Shown one piece after another: positions 34,896 through 39,373 of a stretch of DNA of 64,000 bases (position 1 is the stretch's first letter; each line of letters starts with the position of its first letter). The notes under the pieces were generated by a model. The model was not told the DNA's origin, did not search any database, and was given only the letters and a program-made list of their open reading frames with translations. The stretch comes from Paraglaciecola sp. MB-3u-78 (GTDB lineage: Bacteria > Pseudomonadota > Gammaproteobacteria > Enterobacterales > Alteromonadaceae), in contig NZ_PJCF01000005.1 in NCBI RefSeq assembly GCF_002835935.1, forward strand, positions 248,001 through 312,000, read 5' to 3'. The translations under genes and the position numbers were made by a program.

Positions 34896-34916
34896 GATAT
34901 TTCCTGTTTAAAGGCA

Positions 34917-34931
34917 GCTGCGAGCTTCGAG
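34917..34931. repeat. Inverted partner of the argF-argG tandem repeat
   Basis: GCTGCGAGCTTCGAG matches the complement of two repeat units of the array at 35029-35108 at 13 of 15 positions. In the arg mRNA it lies about 22-36 bases before the argG start, so a long-range stem with the array is possible. Confidence 0.5.
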
Positions 34932-35028
34932 ATAATGGCCACGAGCTAACACATTGCTGCATTAATTTAATCTGATTTAATAAAGTGATTTATGATTGAC
35001 ACTCTATCTACAATATTTTTTACACTCT

Positions 35029-35108
35029 GCTCGTAGCTCGTAGCTCGTAGCTCGTAGCTCGTAGCTCGTAGCTCGTAGCTCGTAGCTCGTAGCTCGTAGC
35101 TCGTAGCT
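35029..35108. repeat. 7-bp tandem repeat, 11.4 copies, between argF and argG
   Basis: The unit GCTCGTA is repeated eleven times without a single change and ends with GCT followed by seven T. The array begins 5 bases after the argF stop in the direction of transcription. Such perfect short repeats are prone to copy-number change by slippage. No ORF crosses it. Confidence 0.97.
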
Positions 35109-35112
35109 TTTT

Positions 35113-36850: not shown

Positions 36851-37879
36851 TTAATTTACCAATCCCCTGTGAGACTCAAAACCAAAACGCAAATTAGCAC
36901 ATTGCATCGCTTGCGATGCCGCACCTTTCAATAAGTTATCAATGGCACTGGTGATAACAAGGTAGCCAGTTTTGCTATCTAATTTCCAGAAAAGGTCACA
37001 GAAAGGTGTGCCGACTACATCGTCAATTTTAGGCCAGCTATTTCTGAGCCTTACAATAGGATTGCCTTGGTATGCTTGCTGATAGGCGTCGCTAATCTGT
37101 TGCTCAGTAACACCGGCTGCCGTTTTTACCGTGATCGTTGCTAATATACCGCGCTTAAAATTGCCTAAATGGGGTGTGAAAATGACATCAGTGCCTAAAT
37201 AGTCAGAAATTTCAGGCTGATGTCTATGTCCCAATACCCCGTATGCCTGCAAGCTGACTTCAGTAAAACTGCTATTCAACGCTGCTTTTCTTCCTGCCCC
37301 AGAGACCCCAGATACTGCGTTGATAATAGGAAAATGTGCAGAATCAATTAGGGCATTTTGTTGTAAAGGCTTAAGCGCAGTTAAAGAGGCTGTGGGGTAA
37401 CAACCCGGTACTGCGACTAAATTTGCATTTTTAATTTGTTCTTGATGCCAATCAGCCAAACCATATACTGCCTCGGCTAATAATTTATCAGCCTGATGTT
37501 CGAAGCCATAAAACGCTGCAAATTTGTGTTTGTCTTTTATTCTAAATGCACCTGATAAGTCCATGATCACTGCTTTTTTGCCACTTTCTTTACCACATAG
37601 CTCCTGCATCCATTTATGGCTTGCTTCATGGGGTGTGGCTAAAAATATTAGGTCAAAGCTGTCTGCTAAGACAGATAAATTGCCTTCATCGATAGGCTGC
37701 AGTGGTAAATCAATGATGTTAAAAAATTGCGGGTGAAGTTCGCCCAAAGATTTACATGCATCAGCACTATTAGTGGAAACATACAAAGCGGCTAATTCAA
37801 ATTGGGTATGGCGATGAACGAGTGCGGCCAATTCAGCGCCAGTATATCCACTGGCTCCAATAATACAGGTTTTGATCAT
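36851..37879 (-). CDS. argC: N-acetyl-gamma-glutamyl-phosphate reductase
   Basis: NADPH-dependent third step of arginine synthesis. The 342-aa protein has the nucleotide-binding IIGASGYTGAELAALV near residue 6 and the catalytic cysteine in VAVPGCYPTASLTAL near residue 155. HRHQPEISDYLG near residue 218 is also conserved. It heads argC-B-F-G-H-A. A terminator hairpin and a short ORF ending in two arginine codons lie in its leader, and an ARG-box-like site lies further upstream. Confidence 0.96.
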   Translation of the reverse strand: MIKTCIIGASGYTGAELAALVHRHTQFELAALYVSTNSADACKSLGELHPQFFNIIDLPLQPIDEGNLSVLADSFDLIFLATPHEASHKWMQELCGKESGKKAVIMDLSGAFRIKDKHKFAAFYGFEHQADKLLAEAVYGLADWHQEQIKNANLVAVPGCYPTASLTALKPLQQNALIDSAHFPIINAVSGVSGAGRKAALNSSFTEVSLQAYGVLGHRHQPEISDYLGTDVIFTPHLGNFKRGILATITVKTAAGVTEQQISDAYQQAYQGNPIVRLRNSWPKIDDVVGTPFCDLFWKLDSKTGYLVITSAIDNLLKGAASQAMQCANLRFGFESHRGLVN

Positions 37880-37931
37880 GGGGAATTTCTCTAAAGGCTC
37901 TATATGAGTCGTGTATTAAATATTGAAGGCG

Positions 37932-37984
37932 AAAAATAAAAAAAGCACTCTTTGCAAAAAGTACATAGTTTAAAGCAAAGAGTG
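37932..37984 (-). terminator. Terminator hairpin in the argC leader (candidate attenuator)
   Basis: The arms CACTCTTTGC (37946-37955) and GCAAAGAGTG (37975-37984) are exact complements around 19 bases. On the minus strand the stem is followed by GC and seven T, then a further T-rich run. It lies 53-105 bases before the argC start. No minus-strand gene ends before it, because the upstream neighbour argE is divergent; so it stops transcripts in the leader of the arg operon. Confidence 0.75.
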
Positions 37985-38005
37985 AGCTATACGCTAACGA
38001 TTCGA

Positions 38006-38083
38006 CTATCGTCGATACAGCATGCTGGCGAAGCTAGGCAGGGATATCAACTGGGAAATTAAATGGGAAATTAAATAGTACAT
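38006..38083 (-). CDS. Short leader ORF ending in Arg-Arg-stop, before argC
   Basis: A 25-codon minus-strand ORF begins ATG TAC TAT and reads MYYLISHLISQLISLPSFAS, then MLYRR and TAG. A shorter version begins at the inner ATG (38021-38023) and reads MLYRR. Both arginine codons are CGA. The Arg codons lie in a small hairpin, TCGAC-GATA-GTCGA, and the terminator hairpin follows 21 bases later. This is the order found in leader-peptide attenuators of other amino acid operons. The ribosome sites of both possible starts are weak, and only two Arg codons are present, so translation is not certain. Confidence 0.45.
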   Translation of the reverse strand: MYYLISHLISQLISLPSFASMLYRR

Positions 38084-38200
38084 ATTCGTTATCTAACCAA
38101 AACAAGTTACAGTAATAAACAATGACATTGAAACGACTAATTTATTTATCGTTTCTGATTAGGCTATAGCATGCCATGTGTTATATATTTATGCAATAAA

Positions 38201-38218
38201 AGTGAATAATTATTTAAT
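38201..38218. promoter_or_regulatory. ARG-box-like ArgR site between argC and argE
   Basis: AGTGAATAATTATTTAAT matches the ArgR consensus (TGAAT-N4-ATTCA) at 9 of 10 core positions. A weaker box may lie just upstream (TGCAATAAAAGTGA). It sits 10 bases before the argE start and upstream of the argC leader, so it could serve both divergent units. Confidence 0.55.
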
Positions 38219-38227
38219 TGGGTGGTT

Positions 38228-39373
38228 ATGCCAAATTTATCTTTCTTAGAACGCTACGAAATTATCATTAAAAGCCCGTCTATTAGTGCCTTTGATGAAA
38301 AAATTGATCAATCAAATAGGCCCCTAATTGACATATTGGCAGGGTGGTTTAGTGAGCTGGGATTTTCCATAACTATTCAACAAGTCCCTGGTACTCGCAA
38401 CAAGTTTAATCTGTTAGCTAAAATGGGCAGCGGTGAGGGGGGATTGTTGCTTTGTGGTCACTCAGACACAGTGCCTTTTGATGAGGGACGTTGGCAATCC
38501 GATCCCTTTAAAGTCAAACAAGCGGATGGCAAGCTGTTTGGTTTAGGTAGTTGTGATATGAAGGGGTTTTTTGCCTTTATTCTTGAAGCATTAAAAACGA
38601 CTCCACTTAATAAGTTGAATAAACCTTTGTACATATTGGCCACGGCAGATGAAGAAACATCCATGGCTGGCGCACGATTTTTTGCTGAGCAACAAATGAT
38701 TAAGCCAAGTATGGCGATTATTGGTGAGCCGACTGAACTTGTACCCATCTATAAACACAAAGGGCATATTGCCCAAAGTTTAAATATTCAGGGTAAAGCG
38801 GGGCACTCGAGCGACCCTGATAAAGGTGTCAACGCCATTGAAATCATGTATCAGGCGATTGGTCAGTTGATGGATTTGCAAAGCAGACTCAAAACTCAGT
38901 TCCATGATGAAGCTTTCAGTGTGCCCCATGTCACCATGAATTTAGGTCACGTTCATGGCGGCGATGCTGAAAATCGCATTTGTGGGCATTGTAAGCTTAA
39001 CTTTGATTTTCGTGCTGTACCTGAATTAAGCGATGAGCAAGCTCTTGCCATGATTGATGAAGCGTTGGCTCCAGTATTCGCAAAATACCCCAACCGTTTA
39101 AGTTTGGATTTGATGTATCCCACAGCGCCCGCTTTTGCATGTCGTGATGAACAAAATATTTTGGCGCTAGCTGAACAACTCACCGGTAAAAAATACCAAA
39201 GTGCCAACTATGCCACCGAAGCGCCATTTATCAATCAACTAGGCTGCGATACGATTGTTTTGGGCCCAGGTAGTATTGACCAAGCCCATCAACCTGATGA
39301 ATTTATTTCTCTGGATTACGTTAATCCCACTGTGAATATTTTGCAGCAAATGATCAACAAGGTGTGTTTTTGA
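38228..39373 (+). CDS. argE: Acetylornithine deacetylase
   Basis: Removes acetate from N-acetylornithine to give ornithine, fifth step of the linear arginine route. The 381-aa protein is a zinc-dependent M20-family enzyme: LLCGHSDTVPFDEG near residue 77 (His metal ligand), GSCDMKGFFAF near residue 107, TADEETSMAGAR near residue 140 and the C-terminal VLGPGSIDQAHQPDEFI. I chose the ATG at 38228; a GTG two codons upstream is also possible. It is divergent from argC. Confidence 0.94.
   Translation: MPNLSFLERYEIIIKSPSISAFDEKIDQSNRPLIDILAGWFSELGFSITIQQVPGTRNKFNLLAKMGSGEGGLLLCGHSDTVPFDEGRWQSDPFKVKQADGKLFGLGSCDMKGFFAFILEALKTTPLNKLNKPLYILATADEETSMAGARFFAEQQMIKPSMAIIGEPTELVPIYKHKGHIAQSLNIQGKAGHSSDPDKGVNAIEIMYQAIGQLMDLQSRLKTQFHDEAFSVPHVTMNLGHVHGGDAENRICGHCKLNFDFRAVPELSDEQALAMIDEALAPVFAKYPNRLSLDLMYPTAPAFACRDEQNILALAEQLTGKKYQSANYATEAPFINQLGCDTIVLGPGSIDQAHQPDEFISLDYVNPTVNILQQMINKVCF

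Follow-up and report, generated by a model that had tools for sequence, protein, structure and literature searches.

The question raised by the argC upstream region of Paraglaciecola sp. MB-3u-78 is whether a translating ribosome takes part in the control of arginine synthesis. The arginine genes of Gammaproteobacteria are, in the usual account, controlled by the ArgR repressor, and a preliminary description of this sequence had proposed leader-peptide attenuation in addition. That proposal gains support from the comparative analysis below, in which the tandem arginine codons, the short open reading frame around them, the terminator and a helix termed H1 all recur in related genomes. The window analyzed here is a stretch of 64,000 nucleotides (positions 248,001 to 312,000 of contig NZ_PJCF01000005.1), and all positions are those of the window.

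Organization of the argC leader

The argC gene (36851..37879, minus strand; product assigned to TIGR01850) heads a row argC-argB-argF-argG-argH-argA that runs on one strand down to 30954 and probably represents a single operon. On the other side of the leader, argE (38222-39373, plus strand) is divergent from argC, and the leader terminator can therefore serve no upstream gene, as had been argued from the start; a terminator of an upstream gene was thus ruled out. The parts initially reported, namely a reading frame ending in CGA CGA and a stop, a small hairpin, and a terminator with a 10-bp stem followed by seven T, are all present on the minus strand. The leader ORF (38006..38083) has 25 codons encoding MYYLISHLISQLISLPSFASMLYRR and ends with a TAG stop at 38008-38006, directly behind the CGA CGA codons (38009..38014) that we propose as the sensor and that are conserved in relatives. 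The small hairpin H2 (TCGAC-GATA-GTCGA, 38002..38015), read directly from the sequence, spans the arginine and stop codons; in the computed fold, these nucleotides take part in a longer and shifted helix rather than in H2. The intrinsic terminator hairpin (37946..37984) has a perfect 10-bp stem and a 19-nt loop, its arms being CACTCTTTGC (37984-37975) and GCAAAGAGTG (37955-37946), followed by a C and by seven T (37938..37944) read from the sequence. The spacing between stop codon and terminator is 21 nucleotides. Helix H1, predicted by RNAalifold, joins a 5’ arm GCT-T-CGC (38028..38034) to a 3’ arm GCG-TAT-AGC (37986..37994) that adjoins the terminator, and in the window it consists of merely two three-pair blocks flanking an internal loop. 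A conserved nucleotide motif, TCCCTGCCT (region 0, 38036..38044), lies just ahead of H1. No Shine-Dalgarno-like site was seen by eye upstream of the leader ATG in the window sequence.

Folding of the 204-nt window leader alone gave a z of −1.0, with 33 of 200 shuffles folding equally well, and no terminator was detected in it by a scan that considered loops of 3-8 nucleotides. Such single-sequence statistics are not convincing, and the case was decided by comparison, because CGA CGA leaders occur in 71 of 104 family regions versus 2 of 144 controls. Comparison at the sequence level confirmed that the leader elements are genuine and go beyond chance.

The CGA pair and its reading frame are conserved

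We compared 144 argC upstream regions, comprising 22 from the genus, 82 more from the family and 40 from other families; family counts (n = 104) include the 22 genus regions. An ArgC match was obtained in 22 of 22 genus genomes searched and all 22 were used, whereas the 82 further family regions (22 best matches plus 60 chosen by hand) came from the 190 of 196 genomes with a match, and the 40 other-family regions were chosen by hand from 130 of 148 (ten of those belonging to the family of the window). Controls were 144 upstream regions, slightly shorter (mean 258 nt), from 20 segments of 20 kb of 20 family genomes and from the window. L-numbers denote argC upstream loci, g-numbers genus groups (g1 being that of the window) and G-numbers genomes.

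A leader was scored when the last 300 nucleotides contained an ORF, 5-60 codons long, that carried in-frame CGA CGA and had its stop at least 15 nucleotides before the gene. This rule identified a leader in 19 of the 22 genus regions, in 71 of the 104 from the family and in 11 of the 40 from other families; among controls, it did so in 2 of 144, which rules out a chance ORF. The family leaders are spread over 27 of 42 genera, and the 11 from other families come from eight genera in seven families. Any Arg-Arg pair was present in 21/22, 77/104 and 21/40 regions, respectively, and also in 27/144 controls, so that the CGA form alone gives a clean signal. CGA makes up 13.9% of 5,471 arginine codons counted. 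Short ORFs upstream of argC in the 144 regions contain 128 tandem arginine pairs, 98 of them CGA.CGA. The weakness initially seen in there being only two arginine codons is thus eased by the near-constant CGA identity and the broad conservation. CGACGA was absent from all 20 argC upstream regions of other orders of the class, picked from 85 matching genomes besides the window’s own.

The reading frame of the pair is kept open as well. In the 45 nucleotides upstream of the CGA pair in 20 genus leaders, the CGA frame contains no stop codon, while the two remaining frames contain 7 and 23. For the 30 nucleotides before the pair, the corresponding counts are 2 versus 32 and 17 for 52 further leaders of the family, and 1 versus 15 and 6 for the 11 from other families. 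The genus leaders align with a gap of 12 nucleotides, which is divisible by three. After the CGA run, the stop follows immediately in 41 of 82 runs and after one codon in 17, and a Tat-like signal is ruled out by this C-terminal position of the arginine pair. SLPSFA and (Y/F)RR are well preserved among leaders of the genus; between genera, the peptide differs except for the arginine pair, the preceding residue being for instance V, K, M, G, L, S, N or Y. The leader peptide found no match in Pfam (searched at E≤10 with the window peptide) or NCBIfam.

Eight of the nine positions of TCCCTGCCT are invariant among 24 aligned leaders from six genera, and its frame, read by eye, differs by genus (TCC CTG CCT in g1, CTC CCT GCC in g33 and CCC TGC in g51). 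Being read in different frames, TCCCTGCC is conserved as RNA, and TCCCTGCCT accordingly looks like an RNA-level element. When pairing partners for TCCCTGCC were sought in 28 leaders (the L002 and L004 rows being unusable), the 3’ arm of the terminator ranked first or second in many of them, though not in all. We do not claim this pairing because several invariant bases would oppose variable positions.

Terminator and helix H1 in relatives

A rule asking for a hairpin and a T run 15-75 nucleotides behind the CGA pair, which is strict, particularly at short distances, was passed after a CGACG(A/G/T) pair in 48 of 144 regions, namely 47 family CGA.CGA leaders and L009. The rule misses L066 and L073, and it accepts weak cases in L083, L103 and L104. 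Expressed by group, 47 of 71 family leaders and none of the 11 from other families passed; the 24 and 11 failures include L078, L082, L094, L097 and L100. The distance between the CGA pair and the terminator is 28-40 nucleotides in the window and in g9, g15, g16, g24, g37, g43 and g11.

RNAalifold, applied to 24 of the 48 leaders, returned the terminator together with H1, the latter unprompted. Both-side changes occurred in 16 of the 22 consensus pairs across these 24 leaders from six genera, and 15 of the 16 belong to the terminator, such that 15 of 16 consensus terminator pairs vary on both sides in at least one leader. A hand-drawn structure placed on 10 leaders of five other genera had 95.9% of its cells paired and showed double changes in 12 of 22 pairs (10 in the terminator and two in H1). 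With these 10 leaders, none of 500 shuffles, which ignore relatedness, reached any of five measures, and slid versions of the structure were far worse.

H1 was further examined by exchanging arms among 27 of the 48 leaders, hand-picked to represent nine genera (the segment being shifted for g51): own arms gave −10.6 kcal/mol and arms from different genera −8.7. When each genus contributed one leader, the values were −11.6 and −9.3 kcal/mol, respectively, and a fraction of 0.0015 of derangements was as low. In 30 of the 40 leaders, the GCT that starts H1 lies 20 nucleotides ahead of the CGA pair; in one, it was not found. It lies at 17 nucleotides in three g3 leaders and at 20 or 23 in six g24 leaders, which have two GCT each and call for a choice by hand. 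The distances of 20, 17 and 23 nucleotides all share one codon phase. On the basis of footprint size, the H1 5’ arm would be covered when the ribosome holds the first CGA in its A-site and would be free when it has reached the stop codon.

The leader defines a searchable RNA structure

A covariance model, R1, was built from the 10 leaders of five other genera with the genus of the window left out. It detected the window leader with an E of 3.7e-12 in the window and 3.8e-10 in the whole genome, where no second match at E ≤ 1 appeared (150 of 2842 candidates scored); on 400 kb of control sequence, the best hit had an E of 2.6. At E ≤ 0.01, R1 hit 30 of 196 family genomes, at a single place in each and 18-67 nucleotides from the ArgC match, and it matched all eight genus members in that draw, the genome of L016 among them. 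Across the order, 5 of 197 genomes gave a hit, four of which are argC leaders and one of which has an E of 0.009, and the structured form is therefore restricted to part of the family. The marginal hit (G461:C1:409045-409134, L196, E 0.009) lies in another family of the order. Rfam gave three sub-gathering hits for positions 37000-39000 of the window at E≤5, none of them inside the leader, and no match, T-box included, for six leader loci at gathering scores.

Exceptions among relatives

Within the genus, L009 has CGA.CGG instead of CGA.CGA, L012 has the ORF and no terminator by scan, and L013 lacks the leader entirely, with nothing similar in its place. L016 has a stop ahead of the arginine position and has CGACTC, while the H1-like sequence and the terminator are kept. 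Among the 22 genus genomes checked for loss of the ORF or arginine codons with the hairpin retained, which would speak against attenuation, L016 is the single instance. In another genus, g6, tandem arginine codons are absent from the three leaders read (L051, L061 and L062), and the leader may sense something else or be decaying. R1 hits in G026 (L062) and G108 show that the RNA structure is retained in g6. L106 and L107, from one genus, carry TGACGA and CGACGA, respectively; CGA is one transition away from TGA, which may explain such losses of the arginine pair. In five of six g24 leaders (L041, L042, L050, L056 and L059), the stop lies 2 nucleotides from the terminator, a geometry unlike that of classical attenuators. 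In the same five, the stop is located inside the H1 3’ arm and the terminator loop is very long.

Promoter, ARG-box-like site and antiterminator search

A putative promoter (38168..38196, minus strand) was read by eye as TTGCAT (38196-38191), a 17-nt spacer ending in TGG, and CATGCT (38173-38168), which predicts a transcription start near 38161. A sequence resembling it is present in relatives, and a scan with a promoter consensus did not pick it up. The ARG-box-like site of the preliminary description, ATTAAATAATTATTCACT (38201..38218, minus strand), is indeed found just upstream, with 15 of 16 scored positions agreeing with WNTGAATWWWWATTCANW, which we take to be the ARG-box consensus; ArgR would be expected to bind there. 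A best score of at least 13 of 16 was reached in 22/22 genus, 94/104 family and 33/40 other-family upstream regions versus 37/140 controls. In several members of the family whose ArgC is about 50% identical (among L077-L104), the last 40-50 nucleotides before argC also hold a TGAATARAATTGCA-like sequence, which may be another ArgR site, located downstream of the leader.

An alternative antiterminator fold had been expected along with conserved arginine codons and a conserved terminator. Upstream alignment bore out the codons and the terminator; for the antiterminator, folding found no strong candidate in the window (−3.8 kcal/mol, z −0.2). Folding of 40 leaders revealed a clear antiterminator in merely six, all of them in L017-L023, a subclade of the genus of the window, where AGGUCUG/CAGACCU starts at the point that the front of a ribosome stalled on the first CGA would reach. 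The z-scores, from shuffles that preserve base composition only, range from −2.3 to −3.7 in these six and reach −0.9 in L021. For the window, the best supported reading is an antiterminator that is weak and kinetic, which we rate above H1 itself acting as the switch.

A model for arginine attenuation and its rivals

We reasoned that the argC leader is, in all probability, a ribosome-mediated transcription attenuator that senses charged tRNA-Arg through CGA, on top of ArgR control, as judged from the sequences compared. With plentiful arginine, the leading ribosome would clear CGA CGA, reach the stop codon and depart, allowing H1 and the terminator to form and transcription to end before argC. 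By contrast, when charged tRNA-Arg is scarce, the presumed translating ribosome would pause on CGA CGA and mask the H1 5’ arm; without H1, the downstream RNA would refold, the terminator would fail, and argC-B-F-G-H-A would be transcribed. Such attenuation would act in addition to ArgR repression at the promoter. CGA is read by an inosine tRNA. A broader version of the model is possible, although we hold it to be rather doubtful. It describes an old and widespread arginine attenuator in marine Gammaproteobacteria related to Alteromonas that is CGA-specific, poor I:A wobble making two codons near the stop sufficient, and that mostly works without a classical antiterminator, the ribosome controlling an H1 that abuts the terminator; in family members and other families that lack a recognizable intrinsic terminator, the CGA sensor would drive another output, such as Rho.

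An arrested nascent peptide could also stall the ribosome, with arginine or ornithine rather than tRNA shortage as the signal. The preservation of SLPSFA and (Y/F)RR within the genus fits this idea, as does ORF34 of Salmonella speF, which likewise depends on two consecutive arginine codons, rare or frequent, according to PMC6386406. There, rare and frequent codons were equally effective, such that codon identity need not matter, which counts against CGA sensing, whereas in the Salmonella his leader CGA in Arg-Arg pairs is slow and de-attenuates (PMC4046918). Several features of the argC leaders make peptide arrest very improbable: the arginine pair alone is common between genera and the residue before it varies, the conserved TCCCTGCC stands in differing frames as expected of conserved RNA, the preference for CGA over the five other arginine codons points to decoding rather than to the residue, and the peptide matches no Pfam or NCBIfam family.

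In another scenario, the terminator is constitutive or otherwise regulated, the ORF sets a basal level through slow CGA decoding, and arginine control is left to ArgR. The ARG-box-like site in all 22 genus members, the lack of a strong antiterminator in the window, and the retention of structure without the arginine pair in L016 and g6 would all be accommodated. The scenario is nonetheless highly unlikely, as it does not account for a codon identity that fits the product of the operon, for an in-frame CGA pair in 27 of 42 genera, or for an H1 spacing locked to that pair. Given that 24 of the 71 leaders from the family and all 11 from other families fail the terminator rule, one may further suppose that CGA stalling acts mainly on mRNA decay or on the access of Rho and that the intrinsic terminator is peculiar to part of the family; ORF34 does work with Rho (PMC6386406). 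This we regard as improbable too, given the terminator 28-40 nucleotides behind the CGA pair in the window and the seven genus groups named above, and its covariation in tests that took in six genera.

Relation to known leaders

Like the his, trp, leu, thr, ilv and pheA attenuators, the argC leader combines a short ORF in which codons for the end product stand in tandem, a protector-like helix (H1 here) with its 5’ arm ahead of these codons, and an intrinsic terminator before the first biosynthetic gene with a stop spacing just above 20 nucleotides. Unlike them, its amino acid is arginine, usually with two or three codons that are mostly CGA; the codon run sits near the stop, with 0-1 codon after it in 58 of 82 runs; no general antiterminator was found in the argC leaders; and an ARG-box-like site is added. 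The fungal arginine attenuator peptide (arg-2/CPA1) is an upstream peptide giving arginine-specific control of an arginine pathway gene, through eukaryotic nascent-chain arrest of translation that stalls at high arginine and involves no terminator. The two are alike in peptide-based arginine control and differ in that the fungal one lacks the terminator. A T-box binds tRNA directly without a leader peptide. It shares RNA-level control by an amino acid with the argC leader, which itself matches neither the T-box nor any other Rfam family.

T-box control of arginine genes is named in PMC1262725, and PMC4824070 places the terminator of amino-acid attenuators more than 20 bp away. The nearest arginine-sensing leaders that we found in the literature, as far as the sources were accessible, are rbfL (PMC13009471) and ORF34 (PMC6386406). 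SpeFL/ORF34 of Salmonella speF likewise couples the arginine level to downstream transcription via consecutive arginine codons; it differs in that speF encodes ornithine decarboxylase, Rho is used, and the peptide has a conserved core HIRRT and belongs to PF10940 (PMC6386406). By contrast, the argC leader peptide has no Pfam match (DUF2618, PF10940), sits before argC and is followed by an intrinsic terminator. In rbfL of Staphylococcus aureus, rare arginine codons of an upstream ORF also sense arginine limitation by ribosome pausing, although the target is translation initiation of rbf through an occluded ribosome site, the codons are AGA/AGG, and both gene and phylum are different (PMC13009471). 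For Pseudomonas aeruginosa carA, a leader peptide and attenuation are mentioned in the part of PMC4997734 at hand. This leader resembles ours in having a leader RNA, a terminator and an ArgR site at an arginine-pathway gene, and differs in its pyrimidine control, in the gene concerned and in that no tandem arginine codons are described there (PMC4997734).

The accessible portions of PMC1262725, PMC2659441, PMC3223726, PMC1382215, PMC4997734, PMC8632094, PMC2965389 and PMC1183508 contain no account of an arg biosynthetic operon with an arginine leader peptide, and several of them mention attenuators of his, thr, leu, ilv, phe or trp; the Shewanella ArgR regulon is described in PMC3223726. Among the matches listed in the literature search, judged by title and abstract, none describes the argC leader element, and an earlier report may exist. 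The same device precedes argC in many related bacteria, and the ribosome very probably gauges arginine supply through it. If the model holds, arginine would join the amino acids sensed by leader peptides ahead of their own biosynthetic operons, and the argC-B-F-G-H-A row would be under ribosome control. It would also provide a natural case of one synonymous codon, CGA, seemingly selected as a sensor, making theories of regulatory codon choice directly testable. The R1 model offers a starting point for an RNA-family entry. Within the row itself, a gap of about 220 nucleotides between argF and argG (window 34896-35112) leaves room for a second promoter or control site.
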